From positions 62,001 to 126,000 of the forward strand of contig JAJVII010000004.1 of the NCBI GenBank assembly GCA_022072085.1: a stretch of DNA of 64,000 bases, read 5' to 3'. Below the pieces are notes generated by a model. It was not told the DNA's origin, searched no databases, and saw only the letters and a program-made list of their open reading frames with translations. The DNA is from Phycisphaerae bacterium (lineage in GTDB: Bacteria; Planctomycetota; Phycisphaerae; JAJVII01). Position 1 is the stretch's first letter. The number at the start of each line of letters is the position of its first letter. Below are positions 10,666 through 20,050 of the stretch, in pieces. The translations under genes were made by a program, and so were the position numbers.

Positions 10666-10784
10666 CAAGTACATACGCCGCTCGGAGCCCGATGCCCACG
10701 GCCGGCGGCGGGTCGAAATCCGCTCCCCGGCCGCGTAGAATCAGGGACAAACTGCAATCCCTCTCACGAAATGGAGCGTGCCGC

Positions 10785-11024
10785 ATGGCCGGGGAACCCC
10801 GCATCGCCCAGAAGGGGCCGTTCGTCCTTGAGATGCAGCCTGGGAAGGTCTGGTGGTGTGCCTGCGGTCGCAGCAACAATCAACCATTCTGTGATGGCAG
10901 CCACAAAGGGACCGGCCTGTCGCCGATGCCCTGCGAGATCACCGAGGCCAAGACCGTCGCCTTCTGCGGCTGCAAGCACAGCGCCAACAAACCGTTCTGT
11001 GACGGGTCTCACAGGAAGCTGTAG
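10785..11024 (+). CDS. Double CDGSH iron-sulfur domain protein
   Basis: This small 79-residue protein consists of two CDGSH modules. Each has the C-x-C ... P-F-C-D-G-S-H pattern that binds a 2Fe-2S cluster through three cysteines and one histidine: WCACG to PFCDGSHKG, and FCGCK to PFCDGSHRK. Bacterial tandem members are small cytoplasmic redox or cluster-transfer proteins of uncertain role. The start at 10785 (MAGEPRI) is chosen because the upstream in-frame sequence does not look coding. The gene converges on nrdR, and the inverted-word repeat at 11070-11183 lies between them. Confidence 0.9.
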   Translation: MAGEPRIAQKGPFVLEMQPGKVWWCACGRSNNQPFCDGSHKGTGLSPMPCEITEAKTVAFCGCKHSANKPFCDGSHRKL

Positions 11025-11858: not shown

Positions 11859-11901
11859 GGCGACCCGTGCCACTACCCCTGTGCCCTTGGCCGAGGTCAC
11901 C

Positions 11902-13173
11902 ATGCCCGACGACCGCGACATCCTCCGCCCCCTGGCCGACCGGATCGCCGAACTGGCTGAGCTGCCCGCGCAGGCCGACCGCAAGCGCCTGTGGGCCGAC
12001 CACCAGGCCCTGCGGCCGACGCCGCGCATCCCCGTCAGCGTCTACTACGAGGGCATCCCGGAGGGGACCTGGCGGAAGGAAATCCTCGGGCCTGACTACC
12101 TCCGCTGCACCGACCCGCTGGCCCGCCGCATCGAGGGCGGACTGCGCAAGCGAATCTGGATGGCTGAAAACGTCCCTGACGACCACATCGTCTGGGCGGC
12201 CGTCTGGGTCGGCGCCGTCGCCACGCGCGAGGTCGGCTGGGGCGTGCCGCTGGAGCGGAAGGAGTCCGGCCAGGACCGCGGGGCGTGGAAGGAAGTGCCT
12301 CCGCTGGCCGGCGAGGGCATCGACGTCGATCGCGTCCGGTTCACCGACCAGCGGATCGACGCGCACGCGACCGCACGCGACGTCGCCCGCGTCCGCGAAT
12401 GGGTCGGCCCGTCGCTGGACGTTCACGTTCAGTATCCCACCCTCGGCCATTCGCCGTTCGACCTCGTCGTCGAGATGCGCGGGATCGAGCAGGTGATGTT
12501 CGACGCGATCGAGCGACCGGTCGAACTGTCGGCGCTGATCGAGCGGGTCTGCGACGGCTTCGTTGAGCACCACGCCAATCGCGAGCGGCTGGGGCAGATC
12601 AACCGCCACCTGTCGCGCGATGGGGCGTGGCAGATCTGGCCGATGCGGGTCCACTGCTGCGACCCGATCCCCGGCGACGGCGGCGACACGCCGCTGCTGA
12701 GCCAGGAGTGGGCCTACGTCTCGGCGCAGACGTCGTCGGGCCTGGGCCCGGCGATGTACGGGCAGTTCGTTCAGCCGGCCAACGTGCGGATGGCGACGCC
12801 GTTCGTCCGCCGGACGGTCTACTACCACGGCTGCGAGCCGCTGGACGCGAAGCTCGACGTGCTGGCCGGCGTGCCCAACCTGCGGCGGTTCCACGTCTCG
12901 CCCTGGAGCGACGTGGCCAAGGCGTCGGCCAGGTTTGGCGGCCGGGCCGTGCTGGAGGTCCACGCCCATCCCGGCAAGGTCGTGTTCGGCGGCGACGAGG
13001 CGTCGATCCGCGCCGAGCTGGTCGGCCTGATCGAGCGGGCCGGCGGCGCGCCGATGGACCTGAACCTCAGCGACATCCACTCGGTCGACGGCCGACCGGC
13101 CACCTTAGGCCTGTGGGCCCGCATTGCGCGCGAGTTAGGGGAGTCGCCCTATCAAGGTGCGGTGGTATCGTAA
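11902..13173 (+). CDS. URO-D superfamily protein (corrinoid methyltransferase-like)
   Basis: The 423-residue protein resembles uroporphyrinogen-decarboxylase-fold proteins common in PVC bacteria and anaerobes, many of which are cobalamin-dependent methyltransferases. Typical segments are RIPVSVYYEG near the N terminus, YYHGCEPLDAKLDVL, the NLRRFHVSPWSDV strand and VLEVHAHPGKVVF. True heme-pathway HemE is usually shorter, with a different N-terminal arginine-rich motif, so heme synthesis is unlikely. The start at 11902 is chosen because the predicted promoter overlaps the earlier ATG. The 3' end overlaps the convergent lipoprotein gene by 22 bases. The substrate is unknown; a methyl donor or corrinoid partner is inference. 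Confidence 0.72.
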   Translation: MPDDRDILRPLADRIAELAELPAQADRKRLWADHQALRPTPRIPVSVYYEGIPEGTWRKEILGPDYLRCTDPLARRIEGGLRKRIWMAENVPDDHIVWAAVWVGAVATREVGWGVPLERKESGQDRGAWKEVPPLAGEGIDVDRVRFTDQRIDAHATARDVARVREWVGPSLDVHVQYPTLGHSPFDLVVEMRGIEQVMFDAIERPVELSALIERVCDGFVEHHANRERLGQINRHLSRDGAWQIWPMRVHCCDPIPGDGGDTPLLSQEWAYVSAQTSSGLGPAMYGQFVQPANVRMATPFVRRTVYYHGCEPLDAKLDVLAGVPNLRRFHVSPWSDVAKASARFGGRAVLEVHAHPGKVVFGGDEASIRAELVGLIERAGGAPMDLNLSDIHSVDGRPATLGLWARIARELGESPYQGAVVS

Positions 13174-14071: not shown

Positions 14072-16318
14072 TCAGTGGGTCGCCGCCGCGATGCGGTAGA
14101 CCTGGCCGCGCAGTTCGAGCACCAGTTCCTGTCCCGGAACCTGGGCGGCGAGGATCTGGTTCTCGACCGTGTTGTTCTTGCCGACCAGGGCGAAGTATTC
14201 GTCGCTGAACTGCTTGACCTCCTTCGCATCCTTATTCACCTCGTCGAGCTTGCGGCTGGTCAGCTCGGCCTGCACCCACTGGTTGCCGCGCTTGTAGAAG
14301 GAGCGTTGCCCGGCGTTGAGCACCGTGGCCACCTGCTCCTGCTTGTCCTGCTCGTAGTCGGCGACCTTACCCTGGCCGTACTGCCAGGCGGCGCCGGGCT
14401 TGGGCGCCTGGGCGGCGGTGTTCATCTTGGCGCGGTTCTCGGCGTGCATCTGTCCGCGCCCGCCGGAGATCGAGCCGCCAAGGTCGGCCGCCTCGGCGGC
14501 GCCCTTGGCCCGCAGCCCGCTGGCGTCGGAAAGCACGGTCCGCTCGTCGGCCAGGAAACTCGTGTATGGCGTGATGATGCCGTACTGCTTGGACAGCCGC
14601 ACCAGTTCGTCGATCACTTCGGTCGATTCGCCGTTGAGCTGGATCTGATCCAGCAGGTAGCCGATCCGCCGCACGGCCCACAGCGGCTCAATGAAGGCGT
14701 AGGTGAACTTGTCGCTCTCTTTGGCCAACTCGACACCGTACTCGAACGTCTGCTGTTTGCCGAGGTAGTCGCCCTTGATCAGCAGGTTGGTCGGCCCGGG
14801 CGTGTCGTAGCGCCCGACCAGCACGATCTGGTCGCCGTCGAACAGGTCGCCGACCACCTGCGGGTAGGTCATGGGCGTCTTGACGCCGGTGAAGTTGATG
14901 GCCAGGCTGGTCATCACGGGGTTCTTGATCTTGCCGTAGAGGCTGGAAATCTTGGCCTCCAGCGGCTCCTTCTCCTTGACGTAGCTGCTCACGCCGCGGT
15001 TCTCGCGGACGAGCTTGTCCAGCAGCCGCACGTTCACGTCGTAGCCGATGCCCATCGCGAAGACGCGGGCATTGATCTTGTTGGCCTCGACGGTGTCCTT
15101 GAGGATCGTCTTTTCGTCGGTCGTGCCGATGGTCGGCAGGCCGTCGGTGAGGAAGAGGATGTATTTCGGCGGGGCGATCTTGAGTCCCCGCGCCCGGGTG
15201 TCGGCTGACGCGGCCATCCGCAGGCCGGTCTCCAGGGCGTCGTGGATGTTCGTGCCGCCGCGGGCGTCGACGCGGTCGAGCATCGTCAGGGCCTTGTCGA
15301 CGTTGGCCTTGGTGTTCTCGACCAGCCGGTCGAACAGCGGGTCGATGGCGTCGTTGTAGACGACGACGTTGAACCGGTCGCCCTCATTGAGGTTCTTGAT
15401 GACGTAGCTGAGCGAGGCCTTGGCCTGGTCGAGCTTGTCGCCGGCCATGCTGCCCGAGCGGTCGAAGAGGACGACGACGTCCTTGGGCTGGACCTTCTTC
15501 TCGGCCTGCGGCCTGGGGCTGGCCAGCATCAGGAAATATCCCGGCTCGTCCAGCCGCGGGCGATAGCTGAGCACGGTCGCGCCGACTTCCTTCTCCGGCG
15601 CCTGGTAGAGCAGGCGGAAGTCGGTCGTCGGCGTCTCGCCCTTGACCTGGTAGACGGCCGTCACGTGGTCGCCCTCGGGCCGCTTGACGGTGATTTCGTG
15701 CGTGGGGGAGTAGACCGCGGCGATGGAGCCCTCGGCCTTGATGTCCACCTTCACCTCGACCTCGTCCAGGGCCTTGGCCGAGAACTTTTCGGTGTTCAGC
15801 GGGTAGAACACCTCGACCAGGTTGTGGTCGCGGCGGCAGACGTCGGTGTAATGGACGACGACGCGGGCCTCCTTGCCGGGCATCAGCGGGAAGGCGCTGG
15901 TCTTGAACACGCCGTAGTTGACGTACTCCAGCAGCGCCGGGTCGCGCTTGCTGCGGACGATCTCCTCGTAAATCTTCCGGGCCTCGTCGGCCTTGAGCAC
16001 CTTGCCCTTGAACTCCTTGCCGTCCACCAGCAGCGTCAACCCGTCGATGGCGGCAGTTGGCGGCAGCGGGAAGAGGTATTCCACCTCGACCATGCCCCCG
16101 CCGGTGTTCACGAACGCCTGATCCACGGTCACGTCGGCGACCTGGTCGCGGACCTTGATGTTCACCTTGTGATACTTGACCGCCCAACTTCCGCGGACCG
16201 GCAGGTCGCGGCGGATCGGGACGATCATCCCGTCGGCCAGCACGGGCGCCGGGGCGGCGAAGGCGACAAGGGAGGCAATCACGAGGGCCGCAGATCCGAT
16301 CAGGCGTGAGCGTGTCAT
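14072..16318 (-). CDS. Secreted VIT and von Willebrand factor A domain protein
   Basis: The 748-residue protein has a signal peptide (residues 1-29, cleavage after PVLA). It then has a VIT (inter-alpha-trypsin-inhibitor) domain around residues 33-160, a vWA domain whose metal site starts with DRSGS at residues 286-290, and a C-terminal tail with Q/K-rich and glycine-rich stretches. Such proteins are exported and bind partners through the Mg-dependent MIDAS site; no enzymatic role is implied. The ATG at 16318 has an AGGAGA site. Much longer open reading upstream is only the antisense of the neighbouring genes. It shares a transcript with the lipoprotein downstream. Confidence 0.9.
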   Translation of the reverse strand: MTRSRLIGSAALVIASLVAFAAPAPVLADGMIVPIRRDLPVRGSWAVKYHKVNIKVRDQVADVTVDQAFVNTGGGMVEVEYLFPLPPTAAIDGLTLLVDGKEFKGKVLKADEARKIYEEIVRSKRDPALLEYVNYGVFKTSAFPLMPGKEARVVVHYTDVCRRDHNLVEVFYPLNTEKFSAKALDEVEVKVDIKAEGSIAAVYSPTHEITVKRPEGDHVTAVYQVKGETPTTDFRLLYQAPEKEVGATVLSYRPRLDEPGYFLMLASPRPQAEKKVQPKDVVVLFDRSGSMAGDKLDQAKASLSYVIKNLNEGDRFNVVVYNDAIDPLFDRLVENTKANVDKALTMLDRVDARGGTNIHDALETGLRMAASADTRARGLKIAPPKYILFLTDGLPTIGTTDEKTILKDTVEANKINARVFAMGIGYDVNVRLLDKLVRENRGVSSYVKEKEPLEAKISSLYGKIKNPVMTSLAINFTGVKTPMTYPQVVGDLFDGDQIVLVGRYDTPGPTNLLIKGDYLGKQQTFEYGVELAKESDKFTYAFIEPLWAVRRIGYLLDQIQLNGESTEVIDELVRLSKQYGIITPYTSFLADERTVLSDASGLRAKGAAEAADLGGSISGGRGQMHAENRAKMNTAAQAPKPGAAWQYGQGKVADYEQDKQEQVATVLNAGQRSFYKRGNQWVQAELTSRKLDEVNKDAKEVKQFSDEYFALVGKNNTVENQILAAQVPGQELVLELRGQVYRIAAATH

Positions 16319-16525
16319 GGCCGGTCTCCTGCGAACGTGGGTAGGTTCTCTACCGGTCTTTGACGCCGCGGCCCGGGCGGGGGTTCCCGCGAATCGGTGG
16401 AATCCCCTCCGACGCCGGGCTAACATTACCCGGAGGAAGGGACCGGCCAGAGGCCATCTGTCTTCGTTTCCGCCCGTTGAGCGCTCGACAGCGCGCAACA
16501 CCGGCGGAAAGGGAAGGCGAACGGG

Positions 16526-18175
16526 ATGAAAGCCGCCCAGGTCATCGTGCCCGAGGCGGTCCTGACCGACCTGTCGGCAACGGGCAAGGACCAGGCCGTG
16601 ACCCAACTGGTGGCGGCCCTGGTCGGCGTCCGGGGCATCGACGGCGAACTGGCCACGAAAGACCTGGCGGCCCGCGAGCGGGCCGGCCCGACCGTGTTCG
16701 CCGCCGGGGGGCGCATGATCGCCATCCCGCACGCCTCCAGCGGGGCCGCCAGGCAGCTGATGATGGCTATCGGCGTCAGCGCCGAGGGGGTGGACTGGGG
16801 CGCCGCCGGCGGGCGGGCCAACCTGATCGTGGTCCTCTTGGGGCCGCCCGAGGCCCACGCCCTCTACCTTCGCGTGCTCAGCCGCATCGCGGCCCTGTGC
16901 CAGATCCCCGGGTTCATCGACCAGTTGCTCAGCTGCCCGTCGCCCAAGGAACTGATCGGCGCGGTGGCCGTCGCCGAAGAGCGGCTGGGCGAGATTCCCG
17001 AGGCGGAAGGGCTGCCGCGGTTCTGTGTGGTGGGCGCCGGGCACGGGGGGATGGCCATGGCCGGCCACCTGACGCTGACCGGGGTCCAGGTGAACCTGCT
17101 GGGCGGTGCGGCGGACCGCATCGACCCGGTGCGGGCCCGGGGCGGGATCGAGGTCACCGGCCAGGTGGAGGGGTTTGCCCAACTCAAGCTGGCGACCTGT
17201 GACCCGGGCGAGGCCCTGGCGTCGGCCCAGGTGATCATGGTGGTCGTGCCGGCCAACGCCCACGGCGAGATCGCCCAGCGCCTGGCCCCGCACCTGCACG
17301 ACGGTCAGGTGCTGATCCTCAACCCCGGCCGCACCGGCGGGGCCCTGGAGGTGTCCCAGGTCGTCCGCAAGCTCAACCCGGCTGTCCACATCTACCTGGG
17401 CGAAGCCCAGACGCTGTTGTATGCCTGTCGCGTGACGGACCTGACCCAGGTGCGGATATTCAGCATCAAGAACTCGGTGCCGGTGGCGACCCTGCCGGCC
17501 TACCATGTGGCCGACGTGCTCCCGCTGCTCCGCAAGGCGCTGCCGGCGTTCGTGCCGGGCGACAATGTGCTCAAGACCGGGCTGGACAACATCGGGGCGG
17601 TGTTTCACCCGGCCATCACGGTGCTCAACGCCGGGCGGATCGAAGACACGCACGGGGAGTTCGATTACTACATCCAGGGCGTCACGCCCTCGGTGGCCGC
17701 CGTCCTGGAAACCGTCGACCAGGAGCGGGTCAGCGTGGCCGAGGCCCTGGGCGTGCACGTTAGCACGGCTCGCCAGTGGCTTTACCTGGCCTACGACGCC
17801 GTCGGCAGGACCTTGCTGGACGCCATCCGGGCCAATCCCGGCTACGTCGGCATCCGGGCCCCCGGCGCCGTGTTGCACCGCTATATCGACGAGGACGTGC
17901 CGGCCAGCCTGGTCCCCATCGCGTCGATCGGCGAGATGCTCGGCGTGCCGACGCCGGCCATCCGATCGATCATTCACCTGGCCTCGGTCATGTACGGGGT
18001 GGATTTCTGGAAGACGGGTCGAACCGTCGACCGCCTGGGCATCCGCGGCATGACCGTCAAGGAAATCCAGTTCCTTGTGGCCGGCGCCATCGAATCGACG
18101 ATTCCAGCCGCGCAGCCCGCCCCCCCGGTCGGCGCGGACATCGCCGGCCCGAGCCGCCCGCCGACGAGGCAATGA
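16526..18175 (+). CDS. Fusion of PTS EIIA domain with opine dehydrogenase-type enzyme
   Basis: The 549-residue protein has two parts. Residues about 5-155 look like a fructose/mannitol-type PTS EIIA domain, with the phospho-acceptor histidine at His69 in IAIPHASSG. Residues 164-530 look like the NAD(P)-dependent octopine/nopaline dehydrogenase family. That part has a Rossmann motif GAGHGGMAMAG at 170-180, the NPGRTGGALE segment, and the catalytic-domain strand HPAITVLNAGRIE with His361 as the likely catalytic base. Opine dehydrogenases join or split an amino acid and a keto acid at a secondary amine. No EI, HPr or sugar permease is nearby, so the EIIA part is probably regulatory. A cobalamin enzyme gene follows after three bases. 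The fusion is seen directly; the substrate is unknown. Confidence 0.8.
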   Translation: MKAAQVIVPEAVLTDLSATGKDQAVTQLVAALVGVRGIDGELATKDLAARERAGPTVFAAGGRMIAIPHASSGAARQLMMAIGVSAEGVDWGAAGGRANLIVVLLGPPEAHALYLRVLSRIAALCQIPGFIDQLLSCPSPKELIGAVAVAEERLGEIPEAEGLPRFCVVGAGHGGMAMAGHLTLTGVQVNLLGGAADRIDPVRARGGIEVTGQVEGFAQLKLATCDPGEALASAQVIMVVVPANAHGEIAQRLAPHLHDGQVLILNPGRTGGALEVSQVVRKLNPAVHIYLGEAQTLLYACRVTDLTQVRIFSIKNSVPVATLPAYHVADVLPLLRKALPAFVPGDNVLKTGLDNIGAVFHPAITVLNAGRIEDTHGEFDYYIQGVTPSVAAVLETVDQERVSVAEALGVHVSTARQWLYLAYDAVGRTLLDAIRANPGYVGIRAPGAVLHRYIDEDVPASLVPIASIGEMLGVPTPAIRSIIHLASVMYGVDFWKTGRTVDRLGIRGMTVKEIQFLVAGAIESTIPAAQPAPPVGADIAGPSRPPTRQ

Positions 18176-18178
18176 GGC

Positions 18179-20050
18179 ATGGCCCACTCCATCACCCAGG
18201 CCGACTGTTTCGCGCTGGTTCGCCCGGCGGTGGACGCCCACACGCTGGGGCTCAGCTCGGTCGAGCAACTGCTGCACGACTGCGGCCTGCGGACGTTGAT
18301 GGCCGACGCCGCCGTCTGCGAGGCGTTCAGCCGGCCGACCGAACCGGCCTGCGCGGCGCGGATCGACCAATGGATTCGCCGGCACCGGGTGACGGTCCTG
18401 GGCCTGAGCTACCGCCTGCGGCCCGTGGAGGGGGCGGACCTGATCGTCGCGGCCATCCACAGCCTGAAGGCCCGCAGGCTCCTGGCGGGCCAGGGCGGGC
18501 CGATCCGGGCCATCCACTTCGCCGGGCTGCCGGAGACCTGCGCCCTGGTCCGCCAGAGGTGCCCGGAAGTCGCCGGCGTCTTCGACGGCGATGAGACGCC
18601 GGCCGAGACCTTGCAGTCGCTGGGGATCAGGCCGGAGGCAATTCCGCGCGAGTTGGCCGAGGAGGCCGCCTATGACCAGGCCCGAATGGCCTTCGGGCGG
18701 GAGCTGATCGGCAAGGGGGGGCACATGGGCGTCCGCCCGGCCGACCGCGGCGGCTACGAGGACTTCGGCACGGATGCCGACACGGTGATTGCCCGGCTCA
18801 AGGACGGCGCCCGTCGCGGACGGGGGCCGCTCTACCGCGCCCATGTGGGGCCCTACCTGCCCGACCGCGACGAGGCGGTGCGGCAGTTTCTGGAATGGAC
18901 CGGCCGGCTGGCGTCGGCGGGATTCCTGGACGTCCTGTCGATCGGGACCTCGCAGTTGACCCAGTCGGATTTCGGGCAGGACTGGGGGGATCGCCCCAAC
19001 GGCGGCGGGGTGCCGCTGAACAGCCCCGAAGAGTTTGCCGCCGTCTGGCGGCGAGCCAGGCCGATGCTCGTGCGGACCTACGCCGGCACCCGGAACGTGC
19101 CGGAACTGGCCCGGATGTACGAGCAGACCATTCATATCGCCTGGCATGCCCTGTCGCTGTGGTGGTTCTGCCAGATCGACGGCCGGGGGCCCAACACGGT
19201 GCGCCAGAACCTTCTCGAACACGTCCGGACGCTCGGCTACATCGCCGCCACGGGAAAGCCGTTCGAGCCCAACCTGCCGCACCACTTCGCCTTCCGCGGC
19301 GCCGACGACGTGACCTACGTGGTCTCGGCGGTGCTGGCCGCCCGCGCCGCCAAGGCCGCCGGCGTCCGCTGGCTCATCCTTCAGAACATGCTCAACACGC
19401 CTAGGCCCACCTGGGGGGTGCAGGACCTAGCCAAGTCGCGCGCCTGCCTGGCGCTGGTCCGGGAACTGGAAGACTCCCGCTTCGGCGTGATCCTTCAGCC
19501 GCGGGGCGGGTTGGACTACTTCTCGACGGATCTGGACAAGGCCCGAGCCCAACTGGCCGCCGTCGCCGCCCTGATGGACGACATCGAGCCCCACGATCCT
19601 TCCAGCCCGCCCATCATCCACGTTGTCAGCTACTCGGAGGCCTCGCACCTGGCTGACCCGGACGTCGTCAACGAGAGCATCCAGATCACCGCCCACGCCC
19701 TGGCCGAGTATCGCCGGCTGCGGTCGGCAGGCCAGATCGCCGACATGGCCGATCACCCTGAAGTCCGGGCACGCACCGGGGAACTGCTGGCCGAGGCCCG
19801 CACCGTCCTGGGCGCCATCGAGTCGGCGGTGCCCCAGCCGCACTCGCCCGACGGGCTCTACCGCATCTTCGCCGACGGCTACCTGCCGGTTCCCTACCTG
19901 TGGGAAGGCCGGGACGAATTCCGCCGCGCCGTCTCCTGGAAGACCCGCCTGATCCGCGGCTCGGTGAAAGTGGTCGATGCGCAAGGCCGCCCCATCCCCG
20001 TGGCCGACCGCATGCGCCAGCTTGCCCTGGGCTTGGCCGAGGCGCGGTGA
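18179..20050 (+). CDS. Cobalamin-binding domain fused to a glutamate-mutase-epsilon-like barrel
   Basis: The 623-residue protein starts with what looks like a B12-binding domain. DAHTLG at residues 19-24 fits the DxHxxG lower-ligand motif (His21), and LGLSYRL at 74-80 fits the SxL motif. Residues about 160-620 resemble the catalytic barrel of glutamate mutase epsilon (MutE/GlmE). The resemblance is clearest in the C-terminal segment IFADGYLPVPYLWEGRDEF and the following PVADRMR. Glutamate mutase has the two parts on separate chains; here they are fused, B12 domain first. It starts three bases after the EIIA-opine dehydrogenase gene and is surely co-transcribed. I infer a B12-dependent isomerase acting on the same metabolite. 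The family call is by eye. Confidence 0.65.
   Translation: MAHSITQADCFALVRPAVDAHTLGLSSVEQLLHDCGLRTLMADAAVCEAFSRPTEPACAARIDQWIRRHRVTVLGLSYRLRPVEGADLIVAAIHSLKARRLLAGQGGPIRAIHFAGLPETCALVRQRCPEVAGVFDGDETPAETLQSLGIRPEAIPRELAEEAAYDQARMAFGRELIGKGGHMGVRPADRGGYEDFGTDADTVIARLKDGARRGRGPLYRAHVGPYLPDRDEAVRQFLEWTGRLASAGFLDVLSIGTSQLTQSDFGQDWGDRPNGGGVPLNSPEEFAAVWRRARPMLVRTYAGTRNVPELARMYEQTIHIAWHALSLWWFCQIDGRGPNTVRQNLLEHVRTLGYIAATGKPFEPNLPHHFAFRGADDVTYVVSAVLAARAAKAAGVRWLILQNMLNTPRPTWGVQDLAKSRACLALVRELEDSRFGVILQPRGGLDYFSTDLDKARAQLAAVAALMDDIEPHDPSSPPIIHVVSYSEASHLADPDVVNESIQITAHALAEYRRLRSAGQIADMADHPEVRARTGELLAEARTVLGAIESAVPQPHSPDGLYRIFADGYLPVPYLWEGRDEFRRAVSWKTRLIRGSVKVVDAQGRPIPVADRMRQLALGLAEAR

Follow-up and report, generated by a model that had tools for sequence, protein, structure and literature searches.

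An opine dehydrogenase-type enzyme fused to a PTS EIIA domain and paired with a predicted B12-binding, glutamate-mutase-like protein in a Phycisphaerae bacterium

Metabolic control by the PTS is known mostly from EIIA proteins that bind their partners non-covalently, and phosphorylation of Enzyme I (EI) follows PEP and pyruvate. The nearest characterised opine dehydrogenases (ODHs) use pyruvate. One of them, N-(1-D-carboxylethyl)-L-norvaline dehydrogenase (CENDH) of Arthrobacter sp. 1C (1BG6), resembles the whole ODH part of the protein described here, including the presumed catalytic His and Asp, but it has no EIIA domain. PtsN (EIIA-Ntr) shares with the remaining part the PF00359 fold family and the phospho-histidine motif, and the host likewise encodes EI and HPr and lacks a PF02378 EIIC; in contrast to PtsN, the EIIA domain of this locus lies below the TIGR01419 cut-off, has Tyr114 at the second histidine and is fused to a metabolic enzyme. 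Glutamate mutase (methylaspartate mutase, GlmE/GlmS) is similar to the product of the adjoining gene in its B12-binding and TIM-barrel architecture and gives the top fold match, whereas the adjoining gene encodes one chain with the B12 domain first. Incomplete PTSs are known as functional regulators (PMC2937029). In Brucella melitensis, PTS proteins occur without a permease and EIIA is tied to central metabolism via its partner SucA; there, however, an EIIA-Man-like protein binds its enzyme non-covalently, whereas here EIIA lies within the enzyme chain (PMC2937029). A literature search found no paper joining an opine dehydrogenase to EIIA, and the preliminary description did not know the fusion as a described system.

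The window is a stretch of 64,000 nucleotides from a Phycisphaerae bacterium (GCA_022072085.1, contig JAJVII010000004.1, positions 62,001 to 126,000), and its features of interest are listed in Table 1. The fusion frame starts with ATG, is preceded by a purine-rich stretch and runs uninterrupted as a single frame; a promoter scan gave no signal above chance. The operon consists of two genes only, with no AsnB or ligase gene beside it, and the flanking genes are on the opposite strand or unrelated. Directly upstream is a VIT and VWA domain protein (14075-16324, minus strand), and the long plus-strand ORFs in that region appear to be its shadow. Farther upstream are a 429-aa protein (11884-13170, plus strand) with a weak match, under the cut-off, to uroporphyrinogen decarboxylase (E 0.0017) and a small iron-sulfur protein of the CDGSH type, in which the CDGSH stretch occurs twice (10692-11024, plus strand).

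Table 1. Coordinates, in the window, of the fusion gene, its partner gene and their predicted domains and residues.
Feature	Position	Strand	Basis or remark
EIIA-opine dehydrogenase fusion, 549 aa	16526..18175	+	ORF, Pfam, AlphaFold; 13 distinct fusion genomes including the window
PTS_EIIA_2 domain, residues 9-144	16550..16957	+	PF00359, E 1.4e-17
His69 codon, expected phospho-acceptor	16730..16732	+	invariant in all fusions; PtsN alignment
Opine dehydrogenase region, residues 164-520 (Rossmann plus PF02317 helical domain)	17015..18085	+	Pfam, 1BG6, Foldseek
His361 codon, presumed catalytic His of the ODH fold	17606..17608	+	alignment
Asp457 codon, presumed partner of His361	17894..17896	+	alignment
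Putative B12-binding/TIM-barrel protein, glutamate-mutase-like, 623 aa	18179..20050	+	starts 3 bases past the ODH stop
DAHTLG, DxHxxG-type cobalamin motif (Asp19, His21, Gly24)	18233..18250	+
Predicted TIM barrel with the C-terminal region, from about residue 203 onwards	18785..20047	+	hhalign, Foldseek; homologous to glutamate mutase subunit E

Profile searches of the fusion protein with Pfam placed both expected domains above their cut-offs, PF00359 in the N-terminal part (64.5 bits, cut-off 27) and PF02317 (Octopine_DH) at residues 346-489 of the dehydrogenase part (E 9.8e-47; 159 bits, cut-off 30), with a Rossmann N-domain at residues of about 166-265 between the two. The best sequence match in the PDB was 1BG6 over residues 166-515 (phmmer E 7.5e-74). 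The AlphaFold model was confident for both domains (pLDDT 90.6, pTM 0.86), and a Foldseek search with it again returned 1BG6 on top (E 6e-37, TM-score 0.93 on the target). The preliminary claim that EIIA and an opine dehydrogenase are joined in one protein is thus confirmed, and profile, Rossmann domain and structure match together assign the dehydrogenase part to the Octopine/nopaline dehydrogenase family as a predicted member. The columns of His361 and Asp457 hold His and Asp in 1BG6 and in octopine dehydrogenase; His361 is present in at least 90% of the rows of the ODH alignment, and Asp457 is likewise conserved. From what is known of the family, we take these two residues to be catalytic. 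A metallophore dehydrogenase of the staphylopine type was rejected on similarity, the staphylopine, pseudopaline and yersinopine dehydrogenases ranking far below 1BG6 (Foldseek E about 1e-16 and weaker, 13-16% identity). A frame or assembly artefact can also be dismissed, as the same fused ORF is present in 13 genomes and one model of the whole chain shows two folded domains.

All 13 fusion EIIA domains matched PF00359. PtsN proteins are the nearest solved EIIA structures by sequence, and a profile of the 13 domains retrieved PtsN structures on top (E 1e-12). His69, which had been proposed as the histidine of an EIIA phospho-histidine motif, is aligned with the histidine of the PtsN VAIPHG motif and is one of 14 invariant columns among 152, which bears the proposal out. 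Arg52, Pro68 and Tyr114 are near-invariant; Arg52 falls in the column of a conserved PtsN arginine, and Tyr114 takes the position of the other active-site histidine in EIIAs of the PtsN type, so that phosphotransfer might proceed by a different chemistry. The fusion EIIA scores 38.5 bits against the TIGR01419 (PtsN/EIIA-Ntr) cut-off of 138.7 and is also under the cut-off of the FruA model; therefore it was taken as an EIIA of its own kind and not filed as PtsN. Mean pairwise identity among the fusions is 44% in the EIIA part and 74% in the ODH part, that is, the EIIA part evolves faster.

To see where else the fusion occurs, 84,980 species genomes, nearly all of the relevant ones metagenome-assembled, were scanned, and the best 80 of 130 hits were kept as relatives; this set was picked with the fused query and therefore leans towards fusions. 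The survey that the preliminary description had called for turned up the fusion in at least 13 distinct genomes, the window included (L004 and L018 belong to the same assembly and were counted once), together with a conserved mutase partner. Among the matches listed, the carriers belong to Planctomycetota, Thermodesulfobacteriota (Syntrophaceae/Smithella and a further deltaproteobacterium), Acidobacteriota (one acidobacterium) and Krumholzibacteriota (one Krumholzibacteriia genome). On the ODH tree the fusions form one branch (SH-aLRT 100), and the sole partial row inside it, L064, starts within the ODH part. On the simplest account, the fusion arose once and then spread between phyla by transfer. 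A separate EIIA gene as the neighbouring precursor of the fusion was rejected, since among the listed loci no standalone EIIA was found beside the unfused ODHs. With the fusion in 2 of 198 genomes of the same class and the partner mutase in 3 of 392 genomes of the phylum, both are rare.

The window genome (5.49 Mb, 97% complete) encodes one HPr, an EI adjoining a PtsN-like EIIA, and four EIIA domains in all; beside EI is an ORF that looks like a ribosome-hibernation factor by sequence inspection. HPr is encoded in all 13 fusion genomes and EI in 12, the exception being G198, which is without the EI N-domain. EIIC, searched as PF02378, was found in none of the 13. It suggests that the PTS of these genomes is regulatory and that, with no PF02378 permease for sugar uptake, the EIIA domain is most likely a switch. 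A component of a sugar PTS was rejected on this PF02378 result, and the earlier observation that no sugar PTS genes lie nearby is correct and holds, for PF02378 EIIC, even genome-wide. HPr-Ser control was rejected as a common feature because HprK is patchy across the fusion genomes. The sampled genomes with unfused ODHs are similar in PTS content (although G213 lacks both HPr and EI), so the relay is a precondition of the fusion rather than its unique mark. The presence of the upstream phosphorelay in fusion-bearing genomes makes a link from the PTS to the dehydrogenase plausible. His69 would receive its phosphoryl group from EI and HPr in keeping with the PEP:pyruvate balance, and its phosphorylation would change the activity of the dehydrogenase, itself a putative user of pyruvate or a similar keto acid; the fusion may in this way match pyruvate consumption to that balance.

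The window's own genome contains another EIIA fusion (L105:1447-2655, contig C36), a 402-aa ORF with PTS_EIIA_2 at residues 250-385 (E 1.9e-14), whose N-terminal part is UspA-like by eye and without a Pfam match. The gene beside it encodes a Na+/H+ exchanger that carries a TrkA_C domain. Control of a K+/H+ antiporter by binding of unphosphorylated PtsN has been reported (PMC11808508).

The EIIA domain might instead be a protein-binding module or a reverse sensor, in which a metabolite of the dehydrogenase tunes phosphoryl uptake from HPr and the enzyme regulates the PTS. Such a role would agree with the common binding of regulatory EIIAs to partners, of which the antiporter just mentioned is an example (PMC11808508), and with the other EIIAs of the host, which would share HPr. 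We nevertheless consider it unlikely, because a short linker ties EIIA directly to the metabolic enzyme and because the fusion has been kept in one clade; both argue for local control first. Still less probable, in our estimate, is a passive folding or solubility appendage without a role in phosphorylation. Divergence of EIIA much faster than that of the ODH (44% against 74% mean identity), the Tyr at the second active-site histidine and the fact that unfused orthologues do without EIIA would all be expected of an appendage, but no fusion departs from His69, Arg52 and Pro68 are almost as constant, and HPr is kept in every fusion genome.

What the preliminary description overlooked is the larger context: the fusion gene opens a conserved gene pair whose second member encodes a B12-dependent mutase-like protein. 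The adjacency of ODH and mutase, mostly without EIIA, was found in 76 of 83 loci (relatives taken from the best 80 of 130 hits), and the pair is present in Bacillota, Atribacterota, Armatimonadota, Ignavibacteriota, Bacteroidota, Planctomycetota and others. In the other seven loci no mutase is seen beside the ODH; two of these loci (L026 and L053) are truncated by a contig end. An independent search of the phylum with the mutase gave three loci, the window's own among them, and the ODH adjoins in all three. Literature searches found no paper joining an opine dehydrogenase with glutamate mutase and no description of the operon; a search combining opine, compatible solute and asparagine synthetase gave no relevant paper, and cobalamin appeared as incidental co-mentions only.

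In profile searches with the 623-aa partner alone, no family was above its cut-off, the match to PF02310 being weak (E 0.16). The orthologue of locus L065, on the other hand, scores 42 against the PF02310 gathering score of 32.1, and 19 of 24 partner homologues give B12-binding matches at E <= 1 (best E 8.8e-11). His21 and Gly24 of the DAHTLG motif (residues 19-24) are invariant in the 24 homologues, and a profile search of the PDB with the partner retrieved corrinoid and mutase B12 domains. The DxHxxG motif and the profile matches of the homologues thus identify a predicted cobalamin-binding domain. The AlphaFold model of the partner (pLDDT 90.6, pTM 0.90) was matched by Foldseek first to the glutamate mutase epsilon chain (1CB7_B, E 3.9e-11) and next to lysine 5,6-aminomutase, with modest TM-scores of 0.5 to 0.6. 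With hhalign, the partner aligned end to end with ten MutE sequences over 384 columns (prob 96, E 1.4e-9; E 3.1e-9 in another run), while an unrelated control, the ODH alignment, gave prob 0.1. The MutE sequences came from plasmid records searched with a glutamate mutase sequence, and what was found was checked against 1CB7_B. A MutE search within the class gave no match, as did its controls, sequence-only PDB searches with the TIM barrel of the partner alone gave no match, and PF06368 was undetected in most partner members. Taken together, the alignments and the model indicate a remote homology between the partner and glutamate mutase.

In glutamate mutase, Arg66, Arg100 and Arg149 make up an arginine claw (PMC10947579). 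In the alignment, which is remote and may be shifted locally, these residues fall on His222, Gln262 and Tyr301 of the partner, and the invariant Arg220 and Arg299 lie two residues upstream of two of these columns (His222 and Tyr301). The replacement of the claw residues suggests that the substrate pocket has probably been remodelled for another substrate, and the partner, homologous though it is, was not filed as a true glutamate mutase because the claw is not kept in the alignment.

Genes for amide-forming enzymes, AsnB-like or D-Ala-D-Ala-ligase-like, are found near the pair in at least 37 of the 83 loci. Because neighbour genes were taken from simple ORF calling and contig ends truncate several loci, the counts of AsnB, ligase and MscS genes are lower bounds. 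An asparagine-synthetase-like gene is near the pair in at least 26 loci; its readable starts are mostly MAGIAG, MSGIAG or similar, without the glutaminase Cys, and six keep MCGI. The Cys-keeping relatives (L022, L034, L082, L086, L089 and L091) have Cys-less ones scattered among them, in which Ala, Ser or another residue replaces the nucleophilic Cys in the gene after the mutase (L019, L020, L021, L057, L068, L077, L084, L094 and others). In at least 11 loci, mainly of Atribacterota, a D-Ala-D-Ala-ligase-like ATP-grasp gene overlaps the ODH start. A DUF5698/DUF2179 protein recurs beside the operon in several phyla (L020:12941-13513; after AsnB in L023, L082, L086 and L091). An MscS channel is nearby in at least nine loci of several lineages, which would make an osmolyte a candidate product; the idea is weak, as most of these loci belong to one Armatimonadota clade.

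The best reading of an ODH, a B12 carbon-skeleton enzyme and an ATP-dependent amide-forming enzyme would be a small-molecule biosynthetic operon. A specific biosynthetic pathway is more likely than the general opine or amino-acid metabolism suggested previously, since the gene leads a conserved pair, in which the mutase gene follows and to which one for an amide-forming enzyme is often added. The operon could instead be catabolic, the B12 mutase and the NAD(P)-dependent dehydrogenase degrading an amino acid or a scavenged opine as in the fermentation of glutamate, ornithine or lysine, with the PTS tuning carbon catabolite control. Many carriers do come from groups of anaerobes (Syntrophaceae, Atribacterota, Bacillota), and the fold neighbours of the partner, glutamate mutase and lysine 5,6-aminomutase, are fermentation enzymes. 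However, the ATP-using enzymes beside so many of the pairs fit synthesis better, and among the neighbour families identified there is no fermentation enzyme of the glutamate, ornithine or lysine pathways; we regard degradation as decidedly improbable.

In the biosynthetic reading, the ODH would join the amino group of an amino acid reductively to an alpha-keto acid, and the adenosylcobalamin protein would carry out a carbon-skeleton rearrangement, either on the amino-acid partner or on the opine. The AsnB-like or D-Ala-D-Ala-ligase-like enzyme that many genomes encode may then make an amide by activating a carboxylate. The glutaminase Cys is missing from other AsnB relatives too, among them beta-lactam synthetase, whose substrate is an N-carboxyalkyl amino acid; hence an opine is a reasonable substrate for the Cys-less AsnB-like enzyme. 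In the window, which has neither AsnB nor ligase in its operon, this last step may be missing, or its gene may lie at another locus. The order of the steps and the direction, synthesis and not breakdown, are putative, as the sequence leaves both unfixed. To this operon EIIA would have been fused once, at the dehydrogenase, in one clade. We give an even chance to the view that the pair represents, in this clade only, a PTS-controlled version of a scattered operon for an opine-type metabolite. Only tentatively do we extend it to a pathway of many phyla in which a new adenosylcobalamin carbon-skeleton mutase, with a substrate other than glutamate, contributes to an opine that is amidated or peptidyl, and whose opine-forming step became, in one clade, a direct covalent target of the PTS.

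The EIIA-dehydrogenase fusion would represent a self-contained system in which an enzyme reads out a phosphorelay in cis, and its hosts have no PF02378-type sugar permease. With its probably altered substrate pocket, the partner suggests that the B12-dependent mutases have a further, new branch, and conservation of the operon hints at an unknown metabolite. If the dehydrogenase is indeed a covalent target, PEP/pyruvate status would switch this metabolic enzyme in cis.
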